Assembly (NCBI GenBank): GCA_017516825.1
Contig: JAFXBC010000034.1
Location: forward strand, 1 to 64,000
From: Clostridia bacterium
GTDB taxonomy: Bacteria > Bacillota > Clostridia > Oscillospirales > CAG-382
Direction of reading: 5' to 3'
DNA: 64,000 bases
The position numbers were made by a program, and so were the translations under genes. The stretch's first letter is position 1; every line of letters starts with the position of its first letter. Below the pieces are notes generated by a model. It ran no database searches. It was not told where the DNA came from and saw only the letters and a program-made list of their open reading frames with translations. Positions 1,541 through 39,751 of the stretch are shown here, in pieces.

Positions 1541-1957
1541 TTATTTCGCTTTGGTGTCGCAATAGATGCAACGGTATTCTCCGCTGTCGGGAGAGTGGAG
1601 GCGGAAGATCTGGTGGATCCCCTGCTCGGTGGTGGTGATGCAACGGGGATTCTTGCAGACCAGGATGTCCGTCAGGGTCTGGGGAAGGGAGATCTCCTTC
1701 TTTTCGATAACCTTTTCGTCGCGGATGATGCACACCGTGGCCTTGGGGCAGACGAAGCTCACCAGGTCCATGTCCAGCTCTACGGCGGCGTCGATCTTGA
1801 TAATGTCCTTTTTGCCAAGCTTGGGGCTGTTCACGTTCTGCAGAACCGCCACGGGGCAATCGAAGGCGCTCAGTCCCAGCATATGGTAGAGGGTCATGGC
1901 CTTCCCTGCGGGGATGTGGTCGATGACGATGCCGTTTTTGATGCTGTCGATTCTCAT
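1541..1957 (-). CDS. pyrI: Aspartate carbamoyltransferase regulatory subunit PyrI
   Basis: 138 residues. It is the non-catalytic regulatory chain of aspartate transcarbamoylase, which binds nucleotides and holds the catalytic trimers together through a zinc domain. The zinc site is visible near the C-terminus: a CKNPRC pair followed by CIYC. The N-terminal nucleotide-binding domain starts [15 protein letters not shown]. The start overlaps the pyrB stop by four bases (ATGA), so the two are translationally coupled. Having PyrI in an operon that also encodes PyrR means both allosteric and transcriptional control of pyrimidine synthesis. It is the last gene of the operon. Confidence 0.96.
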
Positions 1958-2871
1958 ACCTGCACCTCCAGGAGTTTCAAGATCAGCGCCATACGGATGA
2001 ACTTACCGTAGTAGGCCTGGCGGAAATAGCAAGCTCTGGGATCGCCGTCCACACGGGTGTCGATCTCGTTGACACGGGGAAGCGGGTGCATGACGATCAT
2101 GTCTTCTTTGGCGTTCTTCAGCTTCTCGGGGGTGAGGATGTAGGAATCCTTCAGGCGGAGGTAATCCTCCTCGTTAAAGAAGCGCTCTCTCTGCACGCGG
2201 GTCATATACAGGATGTCCAGCTCCGGCATGACCTCCTCAAGAGAGGTGGACTGGACGTACTCGATGCCCTTCTCCTTGATGTAGGTCTGCTTCACGAAGC
2301 CGGGAAGCTTCAGCTCCTCGGGAGAGATGAGGACGAACTTAACGCCTTGGTAGCGGGACATGGCCTCGATGAGGGAGTGTACCGTTCTGCCGAACTTCAA
2401 GTCCCCGCACAAGCCCACGGTAAGGCCTTCAAATCTGCCTTTTTCGTGATGGATGGTCAGCAGGTCGGTGAGGGTCTGGGTGGGGTGGAAATGTCCACCG
2501 TCCCCTGCGTTGATGATGGGAATCAAAGAGTGCATGGAGGCCACCATGGGGGCGCCCTCCTTGGGGTGGCGCATGGCGATGATGTCGGCATAGCCGCTGA
2601 CCACCGCTACGGTGTCGGCAACGCTCTCCCCCTTCTTGGCGGAGCTGGAATTAGAGTCGGAAAAGCCCAGCACGTTGCCGCCCAAGCCCAGCATAGCGGA
2701 TTCAAAGCTCAGTCTGGTACGGGTAGAGGGCTCGAAGAACAGGGTGGCCAGGGTCTTGTACTTGCAGGCCTCCCGATATTTTACGGGACTGGCAATGATA
2801 TCGTCCGCCACACGGATCAGCTCGTCGATCTCCTCTACGGAAAGATCAAGAATGTCGATCAAGTGCTTCAT
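1954..2871 (-). CDS. pyrB: Aspartate carbamoyltransferase catalytic subunit PyrB
   Basis: 305 residues, normal family length. It joins carbamoyl phosphate and aspartate to make carbamoyl aspartate, the committed step of pyrimidine synthesis, in the cytoplasm. Visible motifs are the carbamoyl-phosphate loop [14 protein letters not shown] (about 46-59), MRHP near residue 100 and HPLPRVNEI near 265. The start at 2871 has AGGAGGAAACGACT just before it. It follows pyrE by 72 bases, a gap with a small TCTGAAAACG/CGTTTTCAGA hairpin across the pyrE stop, and overlaps pyrI by four bases. The presence of PyrI points to the class B dodecameric enzyme known from E. coli. Confidence 0.97.
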
Positions 2872-3799: not shown

Positions 3800-4498
3800 T
3801 TAATCTACAAACTCGGCCACGCAGCGCTCGTAGGCGGCAACGGGGTCGGGAGCGGCGGTGATGGGTCTGCCCACCACGATGTAGTCGGAGCCGATCTCCT
3901 TGGCCTGTGCGGGGGTCATAACCCGCTTCTGGTCGCCGATGTCCCCGTCTGCAAAGCGCACGCCGGGGGTGATGGTCAAAAAGCTCTTACCACAGGTGTT
4001 GTGGACAGCCTCTGCCTCCAGGGGGGAGCAGACAACGCCGTCCAAGCCTGCCTTTGCGGCGTTGGAAGCGTAGTGCATGACAACGTCTGCCATAGGCTTT
4101 TCGATCCACAGATCCTTCTCCAGGCTCTCCTGGTCGGTGGAGGTAAGCTGGGTCACGGCGATGAGCAGAGGACGGGTGCCGTCGGGACGGGTCAGCCCCT
4201 CCAAAGCGGCCTCCATCATGCGAACGGTGCCTGCGGCGTGAAGGTTGGTGATGTCAACACCCAGGGTGGAAAGCACCTTCATGGACTTTTTAACGGTGTT
4301 GGGAATGTCGTGAAGCTTGAGGTCCAAGAAGATCTTGTGTCCTCTCTCCTTGATCTCCCGAACGATGGCAGGGCCTTCTGCGTAGTACAGCTCCATGCCG
4401 ATCTTGACGAAGGGCTTTCTCCCCTCGAACTTGTCCAAGAAGTTCAAAACCTCTTCTTTGCTTGCAAAGTCGCAAGCGACGATGACGTCCTTACCCAT
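3800..4498 (-). CDS. pyrF: Orotidine-5'-phosphate decarboxylase PyrF
   Basis: 232 residues. It catalyses the last step to UMP, removing CO2 from OMP. The catalytic DxKxxD motif is present as DLKLHDIPNT (about residues 58-67), with the Lys as proton donor, and the phosphate-binding end reads YIVVGRPITAA. The N-terminus VIVACDF matches the first barrel strand of the short bacterial form. Its start overlaps the pyrD stop by eight bases, so it is coupled to pyrD. A repeat element follows before pyrE. Confidence 0.96.
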   Translation of the reverse strand: MGKDVIVACDFASKEEVLNFLDKFEGRKPFVKIGMELYYAEGPAIVREIKERGHKIFLDLKLHDIPNTVKKSMKVLSTLGVDITNLHAAGTVRMMEAALEGLTRPDGTRPLLIAVTQLTSTDQESLEKDLWIEKPMADVVMHYASNAAKAGLDGVVCSPLEAEAVHNTCGKSFLTITPGVRFADGDIGDQKRVMTPAQAKEIGSDYIVVGRPITAAPDPVAAYERCVAEFVD

Positions 4499-5408
4499 GA
4501 TGTGCTCCTCCTATGATATCCGTTAAATTGTGAATTCCGTATTTTTCCATGACACGGGGCAGGTCTGCCACCATGTCTCTGCAGGCGTAGGGATCGATGA
4601 GGTTTGCCGCACCCACCTGAACGGCGGTGGCGCCTGCCAGCATCAGCTCGATCACGTCCTCCGCATCAGATACACCGCCCATGCCGATGATGGGGATGTT
4701 CACAGCCTCGTACACCTGGTAGACCATGCGTACCGCCACGGGGAAGATCCCCTTGCCGGAGTAGCCCCCCATTTTGTTGGCGATGACGGGCTTTTTGGTC
4801 TTAAGATCGATACGCATACCCATCATGGTGTTGATGAGGCTGATGCCGTCCGCCCCTGCCTCCTCGCAAGCCTTGGCAATGGAGACGATATCCGTGACGT
4901 TGGGGCTGAGCTTGATGTAGACGGGCTTGGTGGTGACGGCCTTCACCGCCTTGGTCACCTCTGCGGTGGAGGCGGGAGAGGTGCCGAAGCTCATGCCGCC
5001 GTGGTGGACGTTGGGACAGCTGACGTTTACCTCCAGGATGCCTACCTGGTCTTCTTTGTCCAGCTTTTCGCAGGTGTAGGCGTACTCCTCGATAGAGAAG
5101 CCGCTGACGTTGGCGATGACCTTCTTGCGGAAGTAGTTCTTCATCTCGGGAAGCTCGTGGGCGATGACGTGATCCACACCGGGGTTCTGCAAGCCCACGG
5201 AATTGATCATCCCTGCGGGACATTCCGCGATGCGTGGGGTGGGATTGCCGAAGCGTTCGTCACGGGTGGTTCCCTTGAAGGAGAAGGTGCCCAGGCAGTT
5301 GATGTCGTACAGCTCCGCAAATTCCTTGCCGAAGCCGAAGGTGCCGCTGGCGGGGATGATGGGGTTATCCAGCTCCCAGCCGGACAGGGTTACGCGTGTG
5401 CTTCCCAT
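4491..5408 (-). CDS. pyrD: Dihydroorotate dehydrogenase B (NAD+), catalytic subunit PyrD
   Basis: 305 residues. It is the FMN subunit of the class 1B enzyme that oxidises dihydroorotate to orotate and passes electrons through PyrK to NAD+. Seen are NPIIPASGTFGFG near the N-terminus, the active-site loop with Cys in EVNVSCPNVHHGG (about 128-140), and the FMN-phosphate region IPIIGMGGVSDAEDV. The Cys base and the neighbouring pyrK gene both point to class 1B rather than 1A or 2. It overlaps pyrK upstream by 19 bases and pyrF downstream by eight. Confidence 0.96.
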   Translation of the reverse strand: MGSTRVTLSGWELDNPIIPASGTFGFGKEFAELYDINCLGTFSFKGTTRDERFGNPTPRIAECPAGMINSVGLQNPGVDHVIAHELPEMKNYFRKKVIANVSGFSIEEYAYTCEKLDKEDQVGILEVNVSCPNVHHGGMSFGTSPASTAEVTKAVKAVTTKPVYIKLSPNVTDIVSIAKACEEAGADGISLINTMMGMRIDLKTKKPVIANKMGGYSGKGIFPVAVRMVYQVYEAVNIPIIGMGGVSDAEDVIELMLAGATAVQVGAANLIDPYACRDMVADLPRVMEKYGIHNLTDIIGGAHHG

Positions 5409-6133
5409 ATGATCTCCTCCCTTTCCAGAACGGGGCCGTCCTTGCAGATCCGCTTGTTGCCGTAATAGGTCTTACAGCTACAGCCCATGCAGGCGCCGAA
5501 GCCGCAACCCATGCGTTCCTCAAAGCTATACTGACCGGAAGTCTTTGCCGTCTTTTCGATGGCATGGAACATGGGCATGGGACCGCAGGTGTAGAAATAG
5601 GTGTAGTCAAGCTCCTTCAGTACGTCGGTGACGAAGCCCTTGGTGCCGTAGCTTCCGTCGGCAGTCGCCACATAGGTGGGAACGCCAAGAGCCTTGAAGT
5701 CCTCCTCCAGGAAGATCTCGCTTGCCTTATTGAAGCCCAGGATCACGGCGGGGTGCTTTCCCTCTCCCAACAGCTTCTTGCACAGGTTATACAGAGGGGG
5801 TACCCCTACCCCGCCGCCGATGAGAACGGGGTTCTCGCCGCTTTTTGCGGTGTCGTAGCCGTTGCCCAGACCCAGCAGGGTATCTATTTCCGTGCCTGTG
5901 GGGATCTTTTCCATGGCTTCCGTGCCGTGACCTACGATCTTATACAGGATGGTCACGGTGTTTTCGGTATAATCGCACACCGAGATGGGGCGGCGGAGGG
6001 TGAAGCCCTCCAGCTTCAGGTTGATGAACTGCCCGGGAGCGGTGATGGCAGAGGTATCCCCCGCCAGCACCATGCGGCAGACGTCAGCCGTGAGGTGGAT
6101 ATTCTCGGTGACGGTAAGTTTGGTTTGTATCAT
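5390..6133 (-). CDS. pyrK: Dihydroorotate dehydrogenase B electron-transfer subunit PyrK
   Basis: 247 residues. This FAD and [2Fe-2S] subunit carries electrons from PyrD to NAD+. The N-terminal FAD domain holds LRRPISVCDY, the NAD domain holds LIGGGVGVPPLYNL, and the C-terminus holds the iron-sulfur ligands in MGCGFGACMGCSCK followed by RICKDGPV. The start at 6133 is supported by GAGGATC upstream and by the start of family homology; a longer in-frame start at 6304 would run through the carB 3' end. It lies 13 bases after carB. Confidence 0.96.
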   Translation of the reverse strand: MIQTKLTVTENIHLTADVCRMVLAGDTSAITAPGQFINLKLEGFTLRRPISVCDYTENTVTILYKIVGHGTEAMEKIPTGTEIDTLLGLGNGYDTAKSGENPVLIGGGVGVPPLYNLCKKLLGEGKHPAVILGFNKASEIFLEEDFKALGVPTYVATADGSYGTKGFVTDVLKELDYTYFYTCGPMPMFHAIEKTAKTSGQYSFEERMGCGFGACMGCSCKTYYGNKRICKDGPVLEREEIIWEAHA

Positions 6134-6146
6134 GTGTTGATCCTCA

Positions 6147-9100
6147 TCAGGAATCGATGGTGGAGATCTCCATGGTGATCTCTTCCAGAACGTCCAGCAG
6201 AACGCGGACGGTATCCAGGGCGGTGAAGATGGTGACACCGTTTTCCACGGCGCAACGGCGGATGTCGATGCCATCGGTTGCCGCGCCTGCGGACTGGTAG
6301 TCACGGGTGTTGATGACGTAGTTCACGTAGCCCTGGCGGATGGATTCGAAGATCTCCTCACTACCCTCGTTCAGCTTCTTCTTCACACGGGTACGGATGC
6401 CGTTTTCCTTCAAGAACTTGGCGGTACCGCTGGTGGCTTCGATGTTGAAGCCCATCTGATAGAAGCGGCGGATGAGGGGCAGGGCTTCTTCCTTGTCCTT
6501 GTCGGCAATGGTGGCCAGCAGGGTGCCGTAGTTCACCACCTGCATACCGGAGGCCTGGAGGGCCTTGTAAAGAGCGCGGTTCAGCCTTCTGTCGTAGCCG
6601 ATGGCCTCGCCGGTGGACTTCATTTCGGGAGAGAGGTAGGCATCCATGCCGCGGAGCTTCTGGAAGGAGAAGGCGGGAACCTTGACGTACCACTTATCCT
6701 TGTCGCCGGGGTAGATATCGTTGATGCCCTGCTCCTTCAAGGACTTGCCCAGGATCACCAGGGTACCGATGTCTGCCAGGCAGTAGCCGGTGGACTTGGA
6801 GAGGAAGGGAACGGTACGGGAGGAACGGGGGTTGACCTCGATGATATAGACGTTGTCTTCCTTGTCTACGATGAACTGGATGTTGTAAAGGCCTACGATG
6901 CCGATGCCCAGACCCAGCTTTTTGGTGTAATCCAGAATGGTATCGCGGACAGCCTGGGACAGGGTGAAGGTGGGATACACGCTGATGGAGTCGCCGGAGT
7001 GGATACCGGTACGCTCTACCAGCTCCATGATGCCGGGGACGAATACGTCCTTGCCGTCGCAGACGGCGTCCACCTCAACCTCTTTACCGATGATATACTT
7101 ATCTACCAGCACGGGGCGATCCTCGTCGATCTCCACGGCGGTCTTGAGATACTGGCGGAGCTGTTGCTCGTTGGCAACGATCTGCATGGCTCTGCCGCCC
7201 AACACGAAGGAGGGACGCACCAGCACGGGATAGCCGATCTCGGAGGCGGCGGTGATACCGTCCTCCACGCAGGTGACGGCTCTGCCCTTGGGCTGGGGAA
7301 TGTTCAGAGAGAAAAGCACCTTCTCGAAGGAATCACGGTTTTCCGCGCGCTCGATGGCCTCGCAGTCGGTACCGATGATGGTCACGCCGCGGTTGCGGAG
7401 AGGCTCTGCCAGGTTGATGGCGGTCTGACCGCCCAGGGAGGCGATGACACCGTAGGGCTTTTCCAGCTCGATGATGTTGCAAACGTCCTCGGTGGTAAGG
7501 GGCTCGAAATACAGCTTGTCCGAGCAGGTGTAGTCGGTGGACACCGTTTCGGGGTTGTTGTTGATGATGATGGCCTCGTAGCCGTTGGCCTTGATGGTCA
7601 TGACCGCGTGGACGGTGGAATAGTCGAATTCCACGCCCTGGCCGATACGGATGGGGCCGGAGCCCAGCACGATGATCTTCTTGCGGTCGGAGGCTACGGA
7701 CTCGTTTTCGTCGCCGTAGGTGGAGTACAGGTAGGGAACGTCTGCGGCGTACTCACCTGCACAGGTGTCGATCATTTTATATACGGGGAACAGGCCGTTT
7801 TCCTTGCGGAAGTTCCAGACGGCGTCCTCGGTGGTCTTCCAGCAATCTGCCACGGCTCTGTCGCAGAAGCCGTAGTGCTTGGCTTCCTTCAGAGTTTCCA
7901 GGTCGAAGGGCTTTTCGGCGATCTCCTTTTCCAGATCCACGATGTGGCGGAGGATATCCACGAACAACAGATCGATCATGGTGGCCTTGCAGATGGTATC
8001 GGAATCCACGCCGCGGCGCAACAGCTCGGCCATGGCGTAGAGACGGTCGTCGGTGCCGTCGCAGATATAGGTGAGAAGCTCCTCGGTGGGAGTATGGTCG
8101 AACTTCTTCATGTGGAGGTGGTACACGCCGATCTCCAGGGAACGGATGGCCTTGAGGAAGCTTTCCTCCACGGTTCTGCCGATGGACATGACCTCGCCGG
8201 TAGCCTTCATCTGGGTGGAAAGCTTGTTGCTGGCGTCGGCAAATTTATCGAAGGGGAAACGGGGCATTTTGGTAACCACGTAGTCCAGAGTAGGCTCACA
8301 GCAGGCAGGGATGGCGGGGAGCTTGATCTCGTCCAGGGTCATACCCACGGCAATCTTGGCGGTCACTCTCGCGATGGGGTAGCCGCTGGCCTTGGAGGCC
8401 AATGCGGAGGAACGGGACACGCGGGGGTTGACCTCGATAACGTAATAGCGGAAGGACTGGGGATCCAGCGCAAACTGCACGTTACAGCCGCCCTCGATCT
8501 TGAGAGCGCGGATGATCTTCAAGGCGCTGTCCCGAAGGAGCTGTGCTTCCTTGTTGGTGAGGGTCTGGCAGGGGCAGACCACCACGGAGTCGCCGGTATG
8601 GATGCCCACGGGGTCCACGTTTTCCATGTTACAGATGGCAATGGCGGTGTCGTTGGCGTCGCGCATCACCTCGTATTCGATCTCCTTGTAGCCCTTGATG
8701 CTCTTTTCGATGAGCACCTGATGCACGGGAGAAAGCTTGAGAGCGTTCTTCATGATCTCGCGAAGCTCTTCCACGTTGTCCGCAAAGCCGCCGCCGGTGC
8801 CGCCCAGGGTGAAGGCGGGACGGAGCACTACGGGGTAGCCGATCTGCTCGGCAACCTTTTCCGCTTGGGGAATGGATTCCGCGATGTCGGAGGGGCAGAT
8901 GGGCTCGCCGATCTCCTCGCAAAGCTTTTTGAACAGGTCGCGGTCCTCTGCGCGCTCAATGCTTTCCGCGGGGGTGCCCAGCAGCTCTACGCGGCATTCC
9001 TTCAGAACGCCCTTCTTTTCCAGCTGCATGGCAAGGTTCAGACCCGTCTGGCCGCCGATGCCGGGAACGATGGCGTCGGGACGCTCGTGGCGGATGATCT

Positions 9101-9326
9101 TGGCCACGTATTCCAGGGTAAGGGGCTCCATGTAGATCTTATCCGCAATGGCGGTATCCGTCATGATGGTGGCGGGATTGGAGTTGGCAAGGACTACCTC
9201 GTAGCCCTCCTCCTTCAAAGCGAGGCAGGCCTGGGTGCCTGCATAGTCGAACTCGGCGGCCTGGCCGATGACGATAGGGCCGGAGCCGATGACCATGACT
9301 TTTTTGATATCTGTTCTCTTAGGCAT
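6147..9326 (-). CDS. carB: Carbamoyl phosphate synthase large subunit CarB
   Basis: 1,059 residues, close to the usual 1,070. It makes carbamoyl phosphate from bicarbonate, two ATP and ammonia, using two homologous ATP-grasp halves plus a C-terminal MGS-like allosteric domain (about residue 930 onward). The start is [20 protein letters not shown], and the second half repeats the motif as [17 protein letters not shown] near residue 553. ATP-grasp signatures such as [11 protein letters not shown]-type strings occur in both halves. Normally ammonia arrives by tunnel from the CarA glutaminase, but the CarA here lacks catalytic residues. One base separates it from carA. Confidence 0.97.
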
Positions 9327-9327
9327 T

Positions 9328-10416
9328 TTACTTGGCCTCCTTCATGGCGGTGATGAACATATCGAAGAGGTAAGCGCTGTCCTGGGGACCGGGGGCGCTT
9401 TCGGGGTAGTACTGGACGGAGAAGATGTTGTCCTCCTTGCAGGCCAGACCCTCCACGGAGCCGTCTACCACGCAGGTGTGGGTGACGGTGAGGGGAGTGC
9501 TTGCCAGGGAAGCCTCGTCCACCACGTAGCCGTGGCTTTGAGAGGTGATCTCGATCTTGCCGGTGACCAGGTTGCGGACGGGATAGGTGCCGCCTCTGTG
9601 TCCCGTCTTCATGGCTACGATCTTGGCGCCGTAGGCCATGGCGATGAGCTGATGTCCCAAGCCGGTACCGAAGATGGGCTTCTTGCCCTTCAGCTTGTTG
9701 ATGAGATCACAGACCGGGGAGGCGTCTGCGGGGTCCCCGGGACCGTCGGAGATGAGGATGCCGTCGGGCTTGTTGGCCAGGACGGATTCCACGGTGGAAT
9801 CCCAGGGCATCACGGTGACGTTACAGCCCAGCTTGTTGAAGGTGCGGATGACGGAAAGCTTGGTGCCGCAGTCGATAACCACCACGTTGAAGATATGGTC
9901 GGGGGTGCGGGAGAACCAGCGCTTGCGACAGCTGACACGGGCAACCAGATCCTTGACCACGGGGGTCTCGGCGATGATCTTCAGCCCTTCCTCCAGGGAG
10001 GTCTCTACCCCTGTGATGAGACAGCGGCAGTTGCCGTTGTCACGGAGGTGGCGGGCCAGCTTGCGGGTGTCGATGCCCTCCATACCGGGAATATCGTCTT
10101 CCTCCAAAATCTCCGCCAGCGTCTTGGTGGTACGGAAGTTGGAGGGGTTGTCGCAGTAGCTCCCCACGATCAAGGCACCCAGAGAGGGGGTGCGGGACTC
10201 AAAGTCCTCGTCGGTGATGCCGTAGCCGCCGATGAGGGGGTAGGTCATGACCAACGCCATACCTGCGGCAGAGGGGTCGGAGATGATCTCCTGGTAGCCC
10301 GTCATGGAGGTATGGAATGCGAGCTCGCACACGCGGTCGCAGGTTGCACCGAAGCCGTAGCCGTAATATTCGCTACCGTCTTCCAGAATCAGTTTGCGGT
10401 CAAATTGTCTTGCCAT
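9328..10416 (-). CDS. carA: Carbamoyl phosphate synthase small subunit CarA with a degenerate glutaminase site
   Basis: 362 residues, full family length. The fold is intact: [11 protein letters not shown] and GIDTRKL in the N-terminal domain, SDGPGDP and the amidotransferase core after residue 175. The nucleophile motif, normally GICLGHQ, reads GTGLGHQ, so the catalytic Cys is Gly252. The HPE motif reads YYPE, so the catalytic His is Tyr337; Glu339 is kept. The glutamine-site motif QNHGF reads QSHGY. This subunit should not hydrolyse glutamine and may only stabilise CarB or guide free ammonia. The nucleotide codons (GGC and TAC) are unambiguous. Mammalian CPS1 offers a known precedent for an ammonia-only enzyme. 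Confidence 0.95.
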
Positions 10417-10448: not shown

Positions 10449-11651
10449 TTATCGGGTATAGTACTTGTCGCCTATGGAGGTGAGCACCCATCTGCCCAGG
10501 ACTTCCATGCCCTTGAAGGGAGTGCTTCTGCCTTTGGTGGCGAAGGTATCGGGATCGATGACGTAGGGGGTCTTTACCTCAAAGACGGTAAAGCCCGGGT
10601 CGGCGGTGATGCCGAATCTTGCTCTGGGGTTGGTACAAAGGAGATCCACCAGCTTTTCTAAGGGGAGGATCCCCGTTTTGACCAGGTGGGTATACAGCAC
10701 CGGGAAGGCGGTCTCCAGACCTACCACGCCCATCAGGCTCTTTTCCAGCCCCTTCCCCTTCTCCTCGGCGGAGTGGGGAGCGTGGTCAGTGGCGATCATA
10801 TCGATGGTGCCGTCCAGGATGCCCGCAATCAGGGCTTCCCGGTCTTCCCTGCCACGGAGAGGCGGGTTCATTTTGAAGCGGCCGTCCTCCTGCAGATCCT
10901 CGTCACACAGCACCAGGTAGTGGGGGCCCGTTTCGCAGGTGACGTTCAAACCCTCTGCCTTTGCCTTGCGGATCAGCTCTACGCTCTCTTTTGCGGAGAC
11001 GTGACAGACGTGGTAGGCACATCCCGTCTCTCTTACCAGCTCCAGGTCTCTGGCGATGGGCAGGTATTCACTTTCACTGCAGATGCCTCTGTGGCCGTGC
11101 CGTTTTGCGTAAACACCGTCGTGGATATAGCCGCCCTTCAAAAGACTGTTATCCTCACAATGGGCAACGATCATCTTCCCCAAAGCCTTGGCGCGAAGCA
11201 TGGCGTCCCGCATCATCTCACGGCTTTGGACGCCTCTGCCGTCGTCGGAGAAGGCTACGACCTTCTCGGCCATTTCCTCCAGGTCTGCCAGGGTCTCCCC
11301 TTTTTCTCCCACCGTGATGGCGCCGTAGGGCAGGACGGCGATACGACCGTCTTCCCGGATGGCATCCAACTGGAGCTGAAGATGCTCTGCGGAGTCGGGA
11401 ACGGGGTTCAGGTTGGGCATGGTGCAGACTGCGGTATATCCCCCGCTTATGGCGGCATCGCATCCTGTATGCACCGTTTCCTTATAAAAATATCCCGGCT
11501 CTCGGAAATGCACGTGCACATCACAAAAACCGGGCAATATCAAATAGGAATGGGAAAGGATGGGAGAAAAACCTCCCGCTTCCAGAAACGTGCGGATGGC
11601 TTCGGACAAGGCTTGATTCTGCATGACCTGCTCTCTTTCTGCCTGCTTCAT
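10449..11651 (-). CDS. pyrC: Dihydroorotase PyrC (class I)
   Basis: 400 residues. It cyclises carbamoyl aspartate to dihydroorotate using zinc. The metal-binding DVHVHFREPG motif is near residue 44, further metal ligands lie in VAHCEDN and CHVSAKE, and the catalytic Asp is in ATDHAPHS. The start at 11651 has GGAAAGGA upstream; the open frame runs on to 12053 but only because it crosses pyrR in another frame. Length and motifs fit class I dihydroorotase, the Firmicutes type. It lies 14 bases after pyrR and 32 bases before carA. Confidence 0.95.
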   Translation of the reverse strand: MKQAEREQVMQNQALSEAIRTFLEAGGFSPILSHSYLILPGFCDVHVHFREPGYFYKETVHTGCDAAISGGYTAVCTMPNLNPVPDSAEHLQLQLDAIREDGRIAVLPYGAITVGEKGETLADLEEMAEKVVAFSDDGRGVQSREMMRDAMLRAKALGKMIVAHCEDNSLLKGGYIHDGVYAKRHGHRGICSESEYLPIARDLELVRETGCAYHVCHVSAKESVELIRKAKAEGLNVTCETGPHYLVLCDEDLQEDGRFKMNPPLRGREDREALIAGILDGTIDMIATDHAPHSAEEKGKGLEKSLMGVVGLETAFPVLYTHLVKTGILPLEKLVDLLCTNPRARFGITADPGFTVFEVKTPYVIDPDTFATKGRSTPFKGMEVLGRWVLTSIGDKYYTR

Positions 11652-11665
11652 GTTTTTTCCTTTCC

Positions 11666-12202
11666 TTATCTGTCGCAAATGTAGACGGCGGATTCTCCGT
11701 CGATGCAATGGGTCAATACGGTAACCACCTCGGTCTTGGCAGTGGGAAGGTTCTTCCCCACATAGTCCGGGCGGATGGGAAGCTCTCTGTGGCCTCTGTC
11801 CACCAAGGCTACCAGCTGGACAGAACGGGGTCTTCCGAAGGAGAACACCGTCTCGATGGCGGCACGGGCGGTTCTGCCTGTGTACATCACGTCGTCCACA
11901 ATGAGGACGTCCTTGTCCGTCACGTCGAAGGGGATCTGGCTCCCCACCAGGGCGGCCTGCTTCTCCTCGGGCGGGAGATCGTCGCGATGGAGGGTCACGT
12001 CCAACGTACCCATAGGCACAGTCTTGCCCTCGAAGCGAAGGATGTTCTCGCACAAGGTACGGGCAAGAGGGACTCCCCTGCGGAGGACGCCTAAGATACA
12101 GATCTCATCCACACCGCGGTTGCGCTCGATGATCTCGTGGGTGATACGGGCAAGGGCACGGGAGACCGCCGCCTCGTCCATCACCTGGGCTTTACGAACC
12201 AT
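11666..12202 (-). CDS. pyrR: Bifunctional pyr operon attenuation regulator / uracil phosphoribosyltransferase PyrR
   Basis: 178 residues. PyrR binds UMP and the pyr leader RNA, promoting termination, and has weak uracil phosphoribosyltransferase activity. The PRPP loop VLIVDDVMYTGRTARA is clear, as is the basic LGVLRRGVPLA segment. The start at 12202 has ACGGAGT upstream; the frame stays open to 12364 through the leader RNA, which is not coding. As first gene of the operon, directly behind a PyrR-type attenuator, it controls the whole UMP pathway. Confidence 0.96.
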   Translation of the reverse strand: MVRKAQVMDEAAVSRALARITHEIIERNRGVDEICILGVLRRGVPLARTLCENILRFEGKTVPMGTLDVTLHRDDLPPEEKQAALVGSQIPFDVTDKDVLIVDDVMYTGRTARAAIETVFSFGRPRSVQLVALVDRGHRELPIRPDYVGKNLPTAKTEVVTVLTHCIDGESAVYICDR

Positions 12203-34434: not shown

Positions 34435-36075
34435 TCAGAACTTCTTGCTATCCTTCAGTTCTACGATCCGCAAGAAGGCGTTCCGCTTGGTGTCCTTGGC
34501 GAAATAGCCGGTACGGACGAACTGGAACTTCTCCCCCGGCTGTGCTTCCGCAAGGGCTTTTTCCATACGGCATCCGGTGAGCTTCACTTCGGATTCGGGG
34601 TTGATATAGTCGTCGTAGGTCTTATCCTCGGGGATGGCGCCGGTGTTTTCGATGGTGAACAGGCGGTTGTAGAGATACACGTCGGTCTCCACGGACTCGG
34701 TGGCGGATACCCAATGGATGGTGCCCTTGATCTTACGGCCGTCCACGGGGTTGCCGCAACCGCTTTCCAGGTCGGCGGTAACGGTGATCTCGGTGACCTT
34801 GCCGCAATCGTCGGTCTTGCAGGACTGATACTTCACGATATAGGAGCCCATCAGGCGGACTTCCCCATCGGGCTTGAGGCGGAAGAACTTGGGAGGAGGC
34901 TCTAATGCGAAGTCGGAGGAATCGATATACAGCTCCTTGGTGAAGGCCACCTTGCGGGTGCCTGCGGTCTCGTCCTTGGGGTTGTTGGGCAGGTCGAAAT
35001 ACTCCACCTTGTCCTCGGGGTAGTTTTCCACCACCACGCGGATGGGATCCAGAACGGCAACGCGGCGGAGAGCGGTCTCGTTGAGATCCTCGCGGACGCA
35101 ATGCTCCAGCAGGGCGATGTCTACCAGGCTGTCGGACTTTGCCACGCCGATACGGCGGCAGAAGTCACGGATGGAAGCGGGGGTGTAGCCACGTCTGCGG
35201 AGACCGCAGAGGGTGGGCATACGGGGGTCGTCCCAGCCGTCCACCAAACCGCCCTCCACCAGAGAACGCAGGAAGCGCTTGCTCATCACGGTGTAGGTCA
35301 GGTTCAGGCGGGCGAACTCGATCTGACGGGGCTTGTGGGGAACGGAAACGTTCTGCACCACCCAGTCGTAGAGAGGACGGTGGATTTCAAATTCCAAGGA
35401 GCACATGGAGTGGGTGATGCCCTCCAAAGCGTCCTGGATGGGGTGAGCGAAGTCGTAGGTGGGATAGATGCACCACTTATCCCCCTGGCGGTGATGGTGG
35501 GCGTACTTGATGCGGTAGATGACAGGGTCACGCATCCAGAAGTTGCCGGACGCCAGATCGATCTTGGCGCGGAGGGTGTATTTGCCCTCGGGGAACTCCC
35601 CTGCCCGCATACGGGCAAAGAGATCCAGGTTCTCCTCCATGGGTCTGTCGCGGTAAGGAGAGATGGCGGGATGGCTAAGATCGCCGCGGTATTCGCGGAA
35701 CTGCTCGGGGGTAAGCTCACAAACGTAAGCCAGACCCTTTTTGATCAGCTCCACGGCAAATTCGTAGTCTTTTTCGAAATAATCGGAGCCGTAGAAGAAA
35801 CGGTCGCCCCAATCGAAGCCCAGCCAGCGGATATCCTCCTGAATGGCGTCAACGTACTCGGTATCTTCCTTGGTGGGGTTGGTGTCGTCCATACGCAGGT
35901 TGCAAAGGCCGCCGTACTTCAAGGCGGTGCCGAAGTCGATGGTCAAGGCCTTACAATGGCCGATGTGGAGGTAACCGTTGGGCTCGGGAGGGAAACGGGT
36001 ATGCACGGTTTCCGCCTTGCCCTCCGCAAGGTCAAGATTGATGGCTTCTTCGATAAAATTGGTTGCTTCTATCAT
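34435..36075 (-). CDS. glnS: Glutaminyl-tRNA synthetase
   Basis: 546 residues, full length. It charges tRNA-Gln directly with glutamine. The class I HIGH motif appears in PPEPNGYLHIGHCKALTID and the KMSKS-type loop in VMSKRFL; FDWGDRFFYGSDYFE and the C-terminal anticodon beta barrels are complete. The ATG at 36075 has GAAGGA eight bases upstream; a TTG at 36081 would overlap gltX. Most Firmicutes lack GlnRS and amidate Glu-tRNA-Gln instead, so this gene was probably acquired; several Clostridia have it. Confidence 0.96.
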   Translation of the reverse strand: MIEATNFIEEAINLDLAEGKAETVHTRFPPEPNGYLHIGHCKALTIDFGTALKYGGLCNLRMDDTNPTKEDTEYVDAIQEDIRWLGFDWGDRFFYGSDYFEKDYEFAVELIKKGLAYVCELTPEQFREYRGDLSHPAISPYRDRPMEENLDLFARMRAGEFPEGKYTLRAKIDLASGNFWMRDPVIYRIKYAHHHRQGDKWCIYPTYDFAHPIQDALEGITHSMCSLEFEIHRPLYDWVVQNVSVPHKPRQIEFARLNLTYTVMSKRFLRSLVEGGLVDGWDDPRMPTLCGLRRRGYTPASIRDFCRRIGVAKSDSLVDIALLEHCVREDLNETALRRVAVLDPIRVVVENYPEDKVEYFDLPNNPKDETAGTRKVAFTKELYIDSSDFALEPPPKFFRLKPDGEVRLMGSYIVKYQSCKTDDCGKVTEITVTADLESGCGNPVDGRKIKGTIHWVSATESVETDVYLYNRLFTIENTGAIPEDKTYDDYINPESEVKLTGCRMEKALAEAQPGEKFQFVRTGYFAKDTKRNAFLRIVELKDSKKF

Positions 36076-36077
36076 AA

Positions 36078-37760
36078 TCAAAGTCCTTCGTAGTAAGAAT
36101 GGATACGGGAAAGAGCTTCCTCTCTGCCCAGGATCTGCATGACGGTGTAAAGGTCGGGAGAGTTGGTTCTGCCCGTCAGCGCCACGCGGATGAAGGTGCT
36201 GATATCACCTACGTTGCCGGGATAAGCGTCGGGGTTGGCCTTGTACTCCTTCATGTTGGAGCAATAGCCCAGCTCCTCTGCGATGGCCTTCACCTTGTCG
36301 AACCAAGCCGTGGAATCGTCGGCTTCGGAATAGGTGGCCTCGAACTTGGTAAGAGCCGCCTTGATATCCTCCTTGGCAAAGCCCGTGATCTCGTCCTCAA
36401 TGGTGTAATAGGACGGGAAGAAGAAGGAGATGAACTTCTTGGCCTCTGCCCAGGTGGCGAAGTCCTTACGGGGCTTCTTGCCTCCTCTGCCGATGGCAAA
36501 AGCGGCGACGGCGCGGTCCTTGTAGGCTTCCAGGGTCTCGGCAAAGGGAGCGTCGTACTCCTTCGCCCAGGCCAGAACGTAAGCGTATACTTCCTCGGCG
36601 GTCATGCGGGAGATGACGTTCTTGGAAACGTCGTCCAGCTTGTTGAAATCAAAGAGACAGCCGGAGGTGGAAAGCTTTTTGATGGTCACGGGGAACTCGG
36701 TATAGGGCAGGGTGGGGTTGGCGGCGTGCCATTCCTCGTAGTTGGAGTTCAGCAGGGTCATCAGATACTCGATGACGCTGACGGGAGGATAGCCCAGTGC
36801 GTCGTAGTCCTCCATCTTGGCGCCCATGTCACGCTTGGAGAGCTTTTTCTTGTTGCCGTTCTCGTCAAGGCGCAACACCTGTGCGGTGTGGAGGTACTTG
36901 GGAGCGCGGAAGCCCAGGTAGCGGAACAGCTGGAGATGCTTGGGCAGACTGGGGAGCCATTCCTCACCGCGGATTACGTGGGTGGTGCCCATAAGGTGAT
37001 CGTCCACGGCGTGGGCGAAGTGGTAGGTGGGGATGCCGTCGGACTTCAGCAAAACGAAGTCCTCGTCGTTCTCGGGCAGCTCCAAAGCGCCCTTGATCTG
37101 GTCGACCACCTTCACCTTCTTTTCCCCGTCCCCGTCGGACAGGATACGCAGAACGAAGGGGTGGCCTGCGGCCAGCTCCGCCTGTACCTGCTCGAGGGTG
37201 ATCTCACGGTTGGCCAGCATTTCCTTGCGGGTCTCCTCGGCGGTGGCGGACCAATCCTTGGTCTTGTTTTCCGTCTTCTTATCCACGGCCAGGGCTTCTT
37301 CCAGCTCTTGGGCAGTGGTGAACACGGGGTAGGCCTTGCCTTCCTTTACCAGCTTCTTGGCGTAGGTCTGATAGATCTCCGCACGCTGGGACTGCTTATG
37401 AGGGCCGTAGATGCCCTTGCTGACGATGGAGCCGTCTTCCCCGATGGAAGCGCCCTCGTCAAACTCTGCGCCGTAATGAGCAAGGGTCTTGATCACACCC
37501 TGTGCCGCACCCTCCACCTCGCGCTTGGCGTCGGTATCCTCGATTCTCAGGTAGAACACGCCGCCGGATTGGTGGGCAAGACGTTCCCCGATCATCACCT
37601 GGTACATACCGCCGAAATGGACGAAGCCGGTGGGGCTGGGAGCGAAGCGGGTGACCTTGGCACCCTCGGGAAGGTTACGGGGCGGATATTGGGATTCGTA
37701 GTCCTCTACGGATTTCGTGATCTGCGGAAACAGCAGTTCCGCCAGCAATTCTGTATTCAT
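36078..37760 (-). CDS. gltX: Glutamyl-tRNA synthetase (probably discriminating)
   Basis: 560 residues, longer than the usual 470-500. The HIGH motif reads FAPSPTGFVHFGGMY and the KMSKS loop KKKLSKRDMGAK. Extra length comes from an insertion around residues 140-200 and a long helical C-terminus. With GlnRS encoded two bases downstream, this enzyme need only charge tRNA-Glu. The ATG at 37760 has AAGAAAGG upstream; the frame stays open to 37820 across the promoter. It is the first gene of gltX-glnS-glf-GT2. Confidence 0.95.
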   Translation of the reverse strand: MNTELLAELLFPQITKSVEDYESQYPPRNLPEGAKVTRFAPSPTGFVHFGGMYQVMIGERLAHQSGGVFYLRIEDTDAKREVEGAAQGVIKTLAHYGAEFDEGASIGEDGSIVSKGIYGPHKQSQRAEIYQTYAKKLVKEGKAYPVFTTAQELEEALAVDKKTENKTKDWSATAEETRKEMLANREITLEQVQAELAAGHPFVLRILSDGDGEKKVKVVDQIKGALELPENDEDFVLLKSDGIPTYHFAHAVDDHLMGTTHVIRGEEWLPSLPKHLQLFRYLGFRAPKYLHTAQVLRLDENGNKKKLSKRDMGAKMEDYDALGYPPVSVIEYLMTLLNSNYEEWHAANPTLPYTEFPVTIKKLSTSGCLFDFNKLDDVSKNVISRMTAEEVYAYVLAWAKEYDAPFAETLEAYKDRAVAAFAIGRGGKKPRKDFATWAEAKKFISFFFPSYYTIEDEITGFAKEDIKAALTKFEATYSEADDSTAWFDKVKAIAEELGYCSNMKEYKANPDAYPGNVGDISTFIRVALTGRTNSPDLYTVMQILGREEALSRIHSYYEGL

Positions 37761-37791
37761 GGCAAAGCCTTTCTTGTTAAGTGTTCTTATT

Positions 37792-37820
37792 ATTATACTC
37801 CTTCCGTTCTTCTTTGTCAA
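37792..37820 (-). promoter_or_regulatory. Promoter of the gltX operon
   Basis: Read leftwards: -35 TTGACA (37815-37820), 17-base spacer, -10 TATAAT (37792-37797). Both hexamers are perfect; the leader is about 25 bases, so no T-box fits. Confidence 0.92.
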
Positions 37821-37858: not shown

Positions 37859-39751
37859 TCAAGGGTTAAAAGCCTCCATCCAAAGGGCAAAGTCGCTATC
37901 GGAGGGCATACGCAAGCCGCCTCTGGGAGACAGGGAGATGGGCCCTGCCTGGGGGGCATCGGGAGAGCAGGAGCGCTTGAACTGGGAGGTGAAGAAGCGG
38001 CGCAGGAAGATCTTCAGCCAATGGTCCACGGTCTCCCCGTCGTAGATTCCCTCAAAAGCCTTCTTCGCCAGGAAGGAGATCTTCTCGGGAGTGAAGCCGA
38101 AGGAGAAGAAGTGGTACAGGAAGAAATCATGCAATCGGTAAGGCCCGATCTTATCCTCGGTCTTCTGGGCGATGTTCCCCTCTCCGTCGGGAGGCAACAG
38201 CTCGGGGCTGACGGGGGTATCCACAATATCATGCAAGATAGCGCCCGCTTCCCCGCCCATTTCGTTTGCCACGTGGGTCACCATATGGCGCATCAGGGTC
38301 TTGGGGATGCTTGCGTTGACGCCGTACATGGACATATGGTCTCCGTTGTAGGTGCACCAGCCCATGGCGATCTCGGAAAGGTCTCCCGTACCCACCAAAA
38401 CGGCGTTTTCTTTGTTGGCAAGATCCATAAGGATCTGGGTGCGTTCTCTGGCCTGGGAATTTTCGTAGGTCACGTCGTGGACCGATTCTTCCTGGCCGAT
38501 GTCCTTGAAATGCCGGCGGACGGCGGCGGCGATGGAGATCTCCCGCAAAGTGATGCCCAGAGCCTTCATGAGGGCAAGGGCGTTTTGGTAGGTGCGGTCG
38601 GAAGTACCGAAGCCCGGCAGGGTGACGCCCAAAACGTTCTCACGGGGGAGACCCAGCAGGTCGGCGGTGTTGACGGCCACCAGCAAGGCAAGGGTGGAAT
38701 CCAAGCCCCCGGAAACGCCCAGGATCATCTTCTTTCCGCCGATGTGCTCCATCCGCTTGGCAAGTCCTGCGGTCTGGATGGCAAGGGTGGTGTCGCACCA
38801 CGCGGGATCACGGGGCAGGCAGGGATCGGGATCCACGAGATCGTCGTATGCGGAAAGCTCCATGGGAGGAACTTCACGAATTTCCAGCCAATAATGATCG
38901 TTGGTTTCGCCGAAGGTCTTCTGCTTCATACGCAAGCCGTTCAGCTTTTGCAGATCGAAGATTGCGGTGGTGAGATGGGTATCTCTGCGGAACAGCTTCC
39001 CTTTTTTCAGGGTCTTGCCGTTTTCGCAAAGGAGAGTAGCACCCGCAAAAACTTGGTCGGTGGTGGATTCGTACACCCCGGCGCCGCAATAGGCGTAGGC
39101 ACACTGCAAAAGCCCGCTTTGGGCTCGGAGCTGCAGCTCCCGGTATTCTTCACTGCCCACGATCTCGTTTTCCGCGGCAATGTTCAAAATCAGATTTGCG
39201 CCGTCTTCCGCCATTTTTGCGGCAATGGAATCAGGTGCGTGAAGCTCATTTCCGATGATGATACCGAAGCACAATTCACCGCAACGGTACACAGTTCTGG
39301 CACAGAAAACATCCTCCCCTTGGAAGAATGCGTCGTGGTTAGCCTCCCCCAAACAGGGAACGGAGGTAAAGCAAGTATCCCGAGAGGACAAATATTCCTT
39401 AGGCGTAAAGCCCAAAAGGTTACCGTCCTGCACCACAGCGGCGCAGTTATACAGCTTGCCTGCGGTCGTCACGGGAAGACCTACCACGGTGATCATGGAA
39501 GACTCTTTGGAGGCTTCCAGAATGGTTTCCATTGCCGTTTCGCAGGCATTCAAAAGAGAACGCTGATAAAACAGGTCGCCGCAGGTAGCGCCGGAAAGAG
39601 ACAGCTCGGGAGTGACCAGCAGGGAACAGCCCGCTTCCTTTGCCTGCGCCATCAATTTGATAATCTCCCCTGCGTTGTAGGCGGGGTTTGCCACCTTGAT
39701 GCGGGGGACGCCGCAACCCACTTTATAGAAGCCGAAGTCCTGTGTTTTCAT
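37859..39751 (-). CDS. nadE: NAD+ synthetase NadE with a degenerate glutaminase domain
   Basis: 630 residues, the two-domain glutamine-type layout. The C-terminal synthetase domain is intact: SGGLDSTLALL (347-357), then DLSEIAMGW and the later KTLMRHMV segment. The N-terminal nitrilase-like domain (1-280) keeps Glu49 (TPELSLSG) and Lys118 (TPKEY), but the nucleophile motif, normally GVEICEDLW, reads GIIIGNELH, so the catalytic Cys is Gly167 (codon GGA). Glutamine hydrolysis should be lost and NAD made from free ammonia. AAAGGAATC precedes the ATG. It is a single-gene unit beside the gltX operon. Confidence 0.93.
   Translation of the reverse strand: MKTQDFGFYKVGCGVPRIKVANPAYNAGEIIKLMAQAKEAGCSLLVTPELSLSGATCGDLFYQRSLLNACETAMETILEASKESSMITVVGLPVTTAGKLYNCAAVVQDGNLLGFTPKEYLSSRDTCFTSVPCLGEANHDAFFQGEDVFCARTVYRCGELCFGIIIGNELHAPDSIAAKMAEDGANLILNIAAENEIVGSEEYRELQLRAQSGLLQCAYAYCGAGVYESTTDQVFAGATLLCENGKTLKKGKLFRRDTHLTTAIFDLQKLNGLRMKQKTFGETNDHYWLEIREVPPMELSAYDDLVDPDPCLPRDPAWCDTTLAIQTAGLAKRMEHIGGKKMILGVSGGLDSTLALLVAVNTADLLGLPRENVLGVTLPGFGTSDRTYQNALALMKALGITLREISIAAAVRRHFKDIGQEESVHDVTYENSQARERTQILMDLANKENAVLVGTGDLSEIAMGWCTYNGDHMSMYGVNASIPKTLMRHMVTHVANEMGGEAGAILHDIVDTPVSPELLPPDGEGNIAQKTEDKIGPYRLHDFFLYHFFSFGFTPEKISFLAKKAFEGIYDGETVDHWLKIFLRRFFTSQFKRSCSPDAPQAGPISLSPRGGLRMPSDSDFALWMEAFNP

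Follow-up and report, generated by a model that had tools for sequence, protein, structure and literature searches.

A conserved CarA with a broken glutaminase triad suggests ammonia-fed carbamoyl phosphate synthesis in a clostridial lineage

Introduction

According to one review, all bacterial carbamoyl-phosphate synthases draw their nitrogen physiologically from glutamine (PMC6245113), and another names glutamine as the donor of every carbamoyl-phosphate synthase (CPS) type but CPS1 (PMC4655335). The E. coli enzyme cannot hydrolyse glutamine without Cys269 and His353, and ammonia travels through a tunnel to CarB (PMC6245113). The window analysed here, a stretch of 64,000 nucleotides from a Clostridia bacterium (GCA_017516825.1, contig JAFXBC010000034.1), carries in its pyr operon a carA gene in which both residues are replaced (Table 1), raising the question of what such a small subunit is kept for and where its enzyme finds nitrogen. 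No report of a natural bacterial CarA lacking the Cys was found in the literature searched, most subscription journals lying outside that search. We consider it probable that this CarA is a dead glutaminase kept as a partner of CarB, and that CarAB makes carbamoyl phosphate from free ammonia.

Table 1. Features of the window discussed in the text, with residue equivalents
Feature	Position	Strand	Remarks
pyrB, aspartate carbamoyltransferase	1954..2871	(-)	carbamoyl phosphate sink
pyrF	3800..4498	(-)	
pyrD	4491..5408	(-)	
pyrK	5390..6133	(-)	
carB, large subunit	6147..9326	(-)	1059 aa; both ATP-grasp halves intact; 86% identical to CarB of G018
carA, carbamoyl-phosphate synthase small subunit	9328..10416	(-)	362 aa, ATG to stop; glutaminase triad broken
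Glu339 codon of carA	9400..9402	(-)	at Glu355 (E. coli), retained; alignment to E. coli CarA
Tyr337 codon of carA	9406..9408	(-)	at His353 (E. coli); alignment to E. coli CarA
Ser294 codon of carA	9535..9537	(-)	at glutamine-contact Asn311 (E. coli)
Gly252 codon of carA	9661..9663	(-)	at nucleophile Cys269 (E. coli numbering); alignment to E. coli CarA
Asp224 codon of carA	9745..9747	(-)	at invariant Asn240 (E. coli), beside oxyanion Gly241
pyrC, dihydroorotase	10449..11651	(-)	upstream of carA in operon; start from 400-aa ORF in relatives
pyrR	11666..12202	(-)	start from 178-aa ORF in relatives
GlnS, glutaminyl-tRNA synthetase	34435-36081	(-)	
nadE, NAD synthetase	37859..39751	(-)	630 aa; two domains (nitrilase-type glutaminase + synthetase)
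Gly167 codon of NadE	39251..39253	(-)	at nucleophile Cys176 of M. tuberculosis NadE (3dla)

The glutaminase site of CarA

The CarA of the window scores 398.6 bits with TIGR01368 (curated cut-off 307.35), and its PF00988 and PF00117 domains are both over their cut-offs. Its nucleophile motif reads GTGLGHQ (Gly252), residues 291-297 read TSQSHGY and the segment of the catalytic His reads SVQYYPES (Tyr337, Glu339), so that the Cys-His-Glu triad has become Gly252, Tyr337 and Glu339. A sequence-only reading of this gene had reported the change of Cys to Gly252 and of His to Tyr337 in a full-length frame that keeps Glu339, and the alignment to E. coli CarA bears this out in every part. The same reading took the rest of the protein to be intact, which is right for its full length and conserved scaffold but overlooked that Asn240 has become Asp: the window CarA reads ISDGPGDP against the usual xSNGPGDP, a change frequent among Cys-less CarA. 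The change from QNHGF to QSHGY, which had also been pointed out, is present, but its Phe to Tyr step is ordinary variation, many intact CarA reading QNHGY. Its other step, Asn294Ser, does fall at the Asn311 position, although Ser occurs there only in this species pair and the relatives at 88-89% identity read QFHGF.

Three CarA from same-genus genomes (G002, G015 and G010) are 99.7, 89 and 88% identical to that of the window, and all read GTGLGHQ and YPE. The same triad changes are seen in L017 and L018, two of these relatives' public contigs, from yak-colon and water-buffalo-caecum assemblies. Three linked changes had been taken to speak against sequencing error. Error is excluded because three related genomes share both triad changes and because dN/dS is about 0.1; one of the supposedly linked changes, Phe to Tyr, is ordinary variation. 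The AlphaFold model of the window CarA (pLDDT 92) has a TM score of 0.93 to E. coli CarA (1jdb), and also matches the structure of the E. coli C269S mutant (1c30).

Conservation and selection

In the clade of the window, dN/dS of carA is 0.007-0.13 (about 0.1), with 0 to 0.12 for the glutaminase domain, and that of carB in the same group is 0.04; carA is therefore under strong constraint. Elsewhere in the genus, G018 and G023 have an intact CarA (GICLGHQ, HPE) in the corresponding operon position, the gene order being pyrC-carA-carB-pyrK-pyrD-pyrF. Identity of the window clade to the intact congener G018 falls from 86% for CarB to 71% for the N-domain and 59% for the glutaminase domain, the corresponding values between G018 and G023, both intact, being 92, 86 and 86%. 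This contrast across domains and with CarB points to an episode of rapid change in CarA on this branch, above all in its glutaminase domain, after which constraint was renewed.

Conservation was also compared at columns that are at least 95% invariant in intact CarA. The positions least kept in Cys-less CarA are C269 (0%), H353 (6%), N240 (15%) and S47 (32%), followed by the segment after HPE (50-56%) and by Lys202 and Glu355, retained at 59%. Gly200, Gly241, Gly271, Gln351, Arg116 and Arg123 are 100% kept, and many of the core glycines, like other residues of the scaffold, are retained at 90-100%. Because the triad, Asn240 and Ser47 columns decay and the core columns stay, this pattern is what the loss of a glutaminase from a retained scaffold would leave. 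The relaxed or altered function proposed earlier for this CarA is thus supported, as far as sequences can tell, by triad loss in a gene that is conserved and under selection.

Recurrence of the loss

It had been suggested that CarA of related Oscillospirales be aligned and the altered positions mapped on a tree; when this was carried out, the loss proved recurrent. A pattern search of the order, built to catch Gly forms and hence giving no rate, matched 22 of 394 genomes in 16 genera. Nineteen of these matches are CarA; those in G104, G345 and G395 were rejected, as they are not CarA at that place. Searched with a Cys-or-Gly pattern, the phylum yielded about 130 matches, 8 of them Gly forms; some matches are TrpG-like. 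The related-locus search consists mostly of intact CarA and leaves out the window's own genome, and so yields no unbiased frequencies. Among 163 distinct CarA sampled, the Cys is present in 122 and absent from 41, where the nucleophile position is occupied by Gly (37), Ser (3) or Ala (1). All 122 Cys-containing CarA keep the His (121 HPE, 1 HPD), which is also gone from 39 of the 41 Cys-less ones, the other two having kept both His and Glu (Fisher p about 1e-35 for the joint loss, before kinship correction). The residues replacing His vary by lineage (Y, D, E, R, K, A, N and others).

On a CarA tree built without the trait columns, loss of Cys requires 16 changes by parsimony, not all of which are real events, and at least 6 are forced by well supported branches. 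A single origin of all Cys-less CarA is rejected (p 7e-5), but one for the pyr-operon Cys-less CarA of Clostridia is not (p 0.53). Cys-less CarA occur in pyr operons and arg operons alike, and the cultured Bacillaceae (Siminovitchia fortis, S. terrae and Bacillus sp. HF117) each have a pair of CarA from which the Cys is gone. The arg-operon CarA of Siminovitchia and Bacillus sp. HF117 (L251-L254, L256) has GLGLGHQ and has retained HPE. Two loci, L194 (G135) and L188 (G210), encode additional CarA-like proteins that are strongly diverged (27-29% identity) and also without the triad. In arg operons of the order (L149, L153, L160, L162), CarB and a diaminopimelate epimerase (DapF) domain form one protein of about 1345 aa, and at L243 and L245 a short gene of about 263 aa resembling a separate DapF follows carB directly.

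Operon context and copy number

The operon of the window runs pyrR-pyrC-carA-carB-pyrK-pyrD-pyrF, with carA adjoining carB, and no gene of unknown kind stands beside carA in the window or in its relatives. The remainder of the window's own genome (G000) was surveyed through family searches. A second, intact carA had been named as what would refute an ammonia-fed enzyme, and none was found with TIGR01368 over this 91%-complete draft assembly, in which the profile finds one CarA. Besides PyrB in the window, the genome encodes one further carbamoyltransferase, an OTC-like protein. Given a single CarA and two carbamoyltransferases, one CarAB probably serves both the pyrimidine and the arginine pathway. 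A CarA over the cut-off occurs in 30 of the 63 family genomes. In 14 of these 30 (G000, G002, G010, G015, G025, G033, G035-G038 and G054-G057), which are up to 98% complete, the sole CarA over the cut-off lacks the Cys, and the other 16 have at least one intact CarA.

Other glutaminases of the lineage

A further amidating enzyme is affected within the window itself. Its NadE matches the two-domain profile NF002730 with 715.8 bits (cut-off 473) and retains the Glu and Lys motifs (PELSLSG, TPKEYL), and its nitrilase-type nucleophile Cys is absent (Gly167); judged by the missing nucleophile, it is a second dead glutaminase. The GMP synthetase of G002 and G015 is a complete frame of 342 aa from which the glutaminase domain is absent. 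The same type is found in the window's own genome, where it is interrupted by the contig end, and in G054, G036, G353, G185, G216, G078 and G172; order genomes with only Cys-less CarA mostly have a GMP synthetase without this domain. A fused GuaA with GICYGMQ and HPE is present in the congeners G018, G021 and G023, and the GuaA of G095 (L291, 441 aa) has a remnant glutaminase domain that ends at the nucleophile region. Bacterial GMP synthetases of this kind, of about 340 aa and without any glutaminase domain, are seen at L298, L305, L303, L300 and L302.

The CTP synthase PyrG is normally essential. It was found in 0 of 13 order genomes with only Cys-less CarA (G000, G002, G010, G015, G025, G036, G038, G054, G078, G172, G185, G216 and G353) versus 9 of 10 with intact CarA (Fisher p 1.2e-5, kinship not corrected). 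This contrast is repeated inside three genera, g1, g2 (G025 vs G024) and g65 (G185 vs G135). Exceptions to the joint pattern exist: Bacillaceae and G638/G660 keep PyrG despite a Cys-less CarA, G025 keeps a fused GuaA, and G042 has an intact CarA but no PyrG. A (guaA)-purF-(pyrG)-carA-carB cluster with intact carA is conserved in genomes that retain intact CarA (L243, L245, L233 and the G062 loci L101 and L272), and G135, G202 and G644 combine such a glutamine-type cluster with a Cys-less CarA elsewhere in the genome.

In family searches of the window's genome, the only class I glutaminase domains to appear were those of CarA and of a PuuD-like hydrolase. The N-terminal Cys is retained in PurF and in two AsnB-like proteins of this genome, so the cell still uses glutamine in places. 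A TrpG/PabA-like protein of the Bacillaceae (Siminovitchia and Bacillus sp. HF117) has GVGLGCH and is likewise without the Cys. Three AsnB-like proteins, at L322 (G004), L324 (G054) and L325 (G353), have a missing N-terminal nucleophile Cys or a degenerate glutaminase domain. The window also encodes GlnS, which is uncommon in Clostridia; it adjoins a glutamate-tRNA-ligase-like gene at 36078-37820.

The nitrogen donor of CarAB

Glutamine could still be the donor if the window CarA were a redundant, decaying copy, its intact counterpart or a whole guaA-purF-pyrG-carA-carB cluster being missing from the assembly. Such pairs exist, since G135, G202 and G374 each have one Cys-less and one intact CarA, the latter sitting in a cluster with purF and pyrG in G135 and G202; PyrG is missing here too, as though such a cluster had dropped from the bins, and the assembly is a draft. 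We nevertheless hold this to be unlikely: the Cys-less CarA stands alone in all 14 family genomes listed above and is under purifying selection, the intact CarA of its own genus lies in the pyr operon itself and not in a purF/pyrG cluster, and the glutaminase-less GuaA and Cys-less NadE are positive observations, not absences. It is more doubtful still that a separate glutaminase, a PuuD-like class I protein or another amidase, feeds CarAB in trans with glutamine as the true donor. The one other PF00117 protein with a Cys in the genome (235 aa) would be the candidate, but it is a Peptidase C26/PuuD-like hydrolase unlinked to carAB; the pyr operon offers no unknown gene next to carA, and the co-loss in NadE and GuaA favours a general change of donor.

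Other explanations concern the protein itself and were rejected for the window CarA. That it is an early pseudogene, with CarB working alone or not at all, might be suspected from the fast divergence of its glutaminase domain on this branch, yet the ORF is intact in four genomes, both domains show the low dN/dS within the clade, and the invariant core, the confident CarA fold and the operon have all been retained, which makes decay very improbable. For sequencing or assembly error nothing could be adduced, and the same substitutions occur in independent genomes; for a triad rebuilt with other glutamine-hydrolysing residues, Thr251, Tyr337 and Glu339 are polar and near the site, but the replacement of His differs by lineage and the Gly that mostly occupies the Cys position is unable to act as nucleophile. 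We give these last two ideas hardly any credence.

If CarAB is fed by ammonia, as the sequence-only reading had expected and as is preferred here, CarA would still bind and support CarB, a scaffold role suggested by its conserved fold and invariant core. Ammonia would reach the carboxyphosphate site of CarB from the cytosol and not from CarA-bound glutamine. The precedent for this reaction is E. coli, in which the large subunit on its own can produce carbamoyl phosphate in vivo from NH3, according to the passage of a review that cites Rubino 1987 (PMC6245113), and when the tunnel is blocked or perforated, glutamine use is abolished and ammonia use is not (PMC4655335). With Cys and His essential for hydrolysis, CarB able to use NH3 and the tunnel dispensable for ammonia, CarAB should run only on free ammonia. 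E. coli CPS requires high, likely unphysiological ammonia (PMC6245113), so that either CarB or the niche must compensate. No specific adaptation of CarB to ammonia was found; plentiful free ammonia in the animal gut would be the permissive condition. The product would feed pyrimidine synthesis and, because no other CarA was found, would also supply arginine.

A dead CarA together with the loss of other glutaminases in the lineage suggests that nucleotides are built from free ammonia more generally. The sequence-only reading dealt with one gene, and the recurrent loss and the changes in NadE, GuaA and PyrG lay outside its claim. It could be that several gut Clostridia lineages and, separately, soil Bacillaceae such as Siminovitchia fortis have dismantled the glutaminase halves of many amidotransferases and now make their nucleotides and NAD with free ammonia, perhaps including a route to CTP that has gone unrecognised. 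This clade-level switch of donor, which is less certain than the ammonia-fed CarAB and to which we give about even chances, draws on the dead CarA, the deleted GuaA domain, the lost NadE nucleophile, the lost Cys of the Bacillaceae TrpG/PabA-like protein and the absence of PyrG from the Clostridia.

Significance

A bacterial CarA that is the only one found in its genome, is conserved and has neither nucleophile nor His contradicts the two review statements on glutamine cited at the outset. Because such a CarA is still called glutamine-hydrolyzing (NCBIfam), standard profile annotation hides the loss. The recurrent losses amount to a natural experiment, run several times, on a transition that vertebrates made once, for the urea cycle, and the co-loss of CarA with GuaA, NadE and PyrG would give a testable rule, namely that glutaminases decay jointly in places rich in free ammonia. 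There are also consequences for the metabolic modelling of gut bacteria and for how glutamine analogues can be expected to act on them. Testing is practical in the cultured Siminovitchia fortis DSM 16012, both of whose CarA lack the Cys.

Comparison with known systems

The window CarA has the length, both domains (TIGR01368, PF00988 and PF00117), the fold and the operon with carB in common with E. coli CarA, and differs from it in lacking the catalytic Cys and His and in its altered Asn240 and Asn311 positions. In a 2012 survey of 600-800 genomes, carAB, guaA and pyrG never occurred without their glutaminase part (PMC3376133 Table 1), genes and not residues having been counted. E. coli NadE is a precedent for a bacterial amidating enzyme working on free ammonia in vivo (PMC3376133), but it is entirely without a glutaminase domain, whereas the window CarA keeps its own. 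A convergent move of a glutamine CPS towards ammonia is known from CPS III of Alcolapia fish (PMC7657897), in which the triad is intact and a glutamine-binding residue is changed, unlike the broken triad here.

A further parallel, drawn already by the sequence-only reading, is ammonia-specific vertebrate CPS1 (human CPS1 5dot/5dou; domain fold TM 0.89), which likewise retains a glutaminase-like domain without the Cys and uses free ammonia, as is predicted for CarAB of the window. In CPS1 the Cys has become Ser, and the ammonia tunnel is blocked by Gln318 at the Gly293 position (PMC4655335). The window CarA, in contrast, keeps Gly276 (GHRGG) at this tunnel position (Gly293 in E. coli), and CPS1 keeps more of the glutaminase site than the window CarA, which has Gly for Cys and has lost the His as well. 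CPS1 is moreover one fused chain that requires N-acetylglutamate, and the window encodes carA and carB as two separate genes. The likeness between CarAB of the window and CPS1 is functional only, and their origins are separate.
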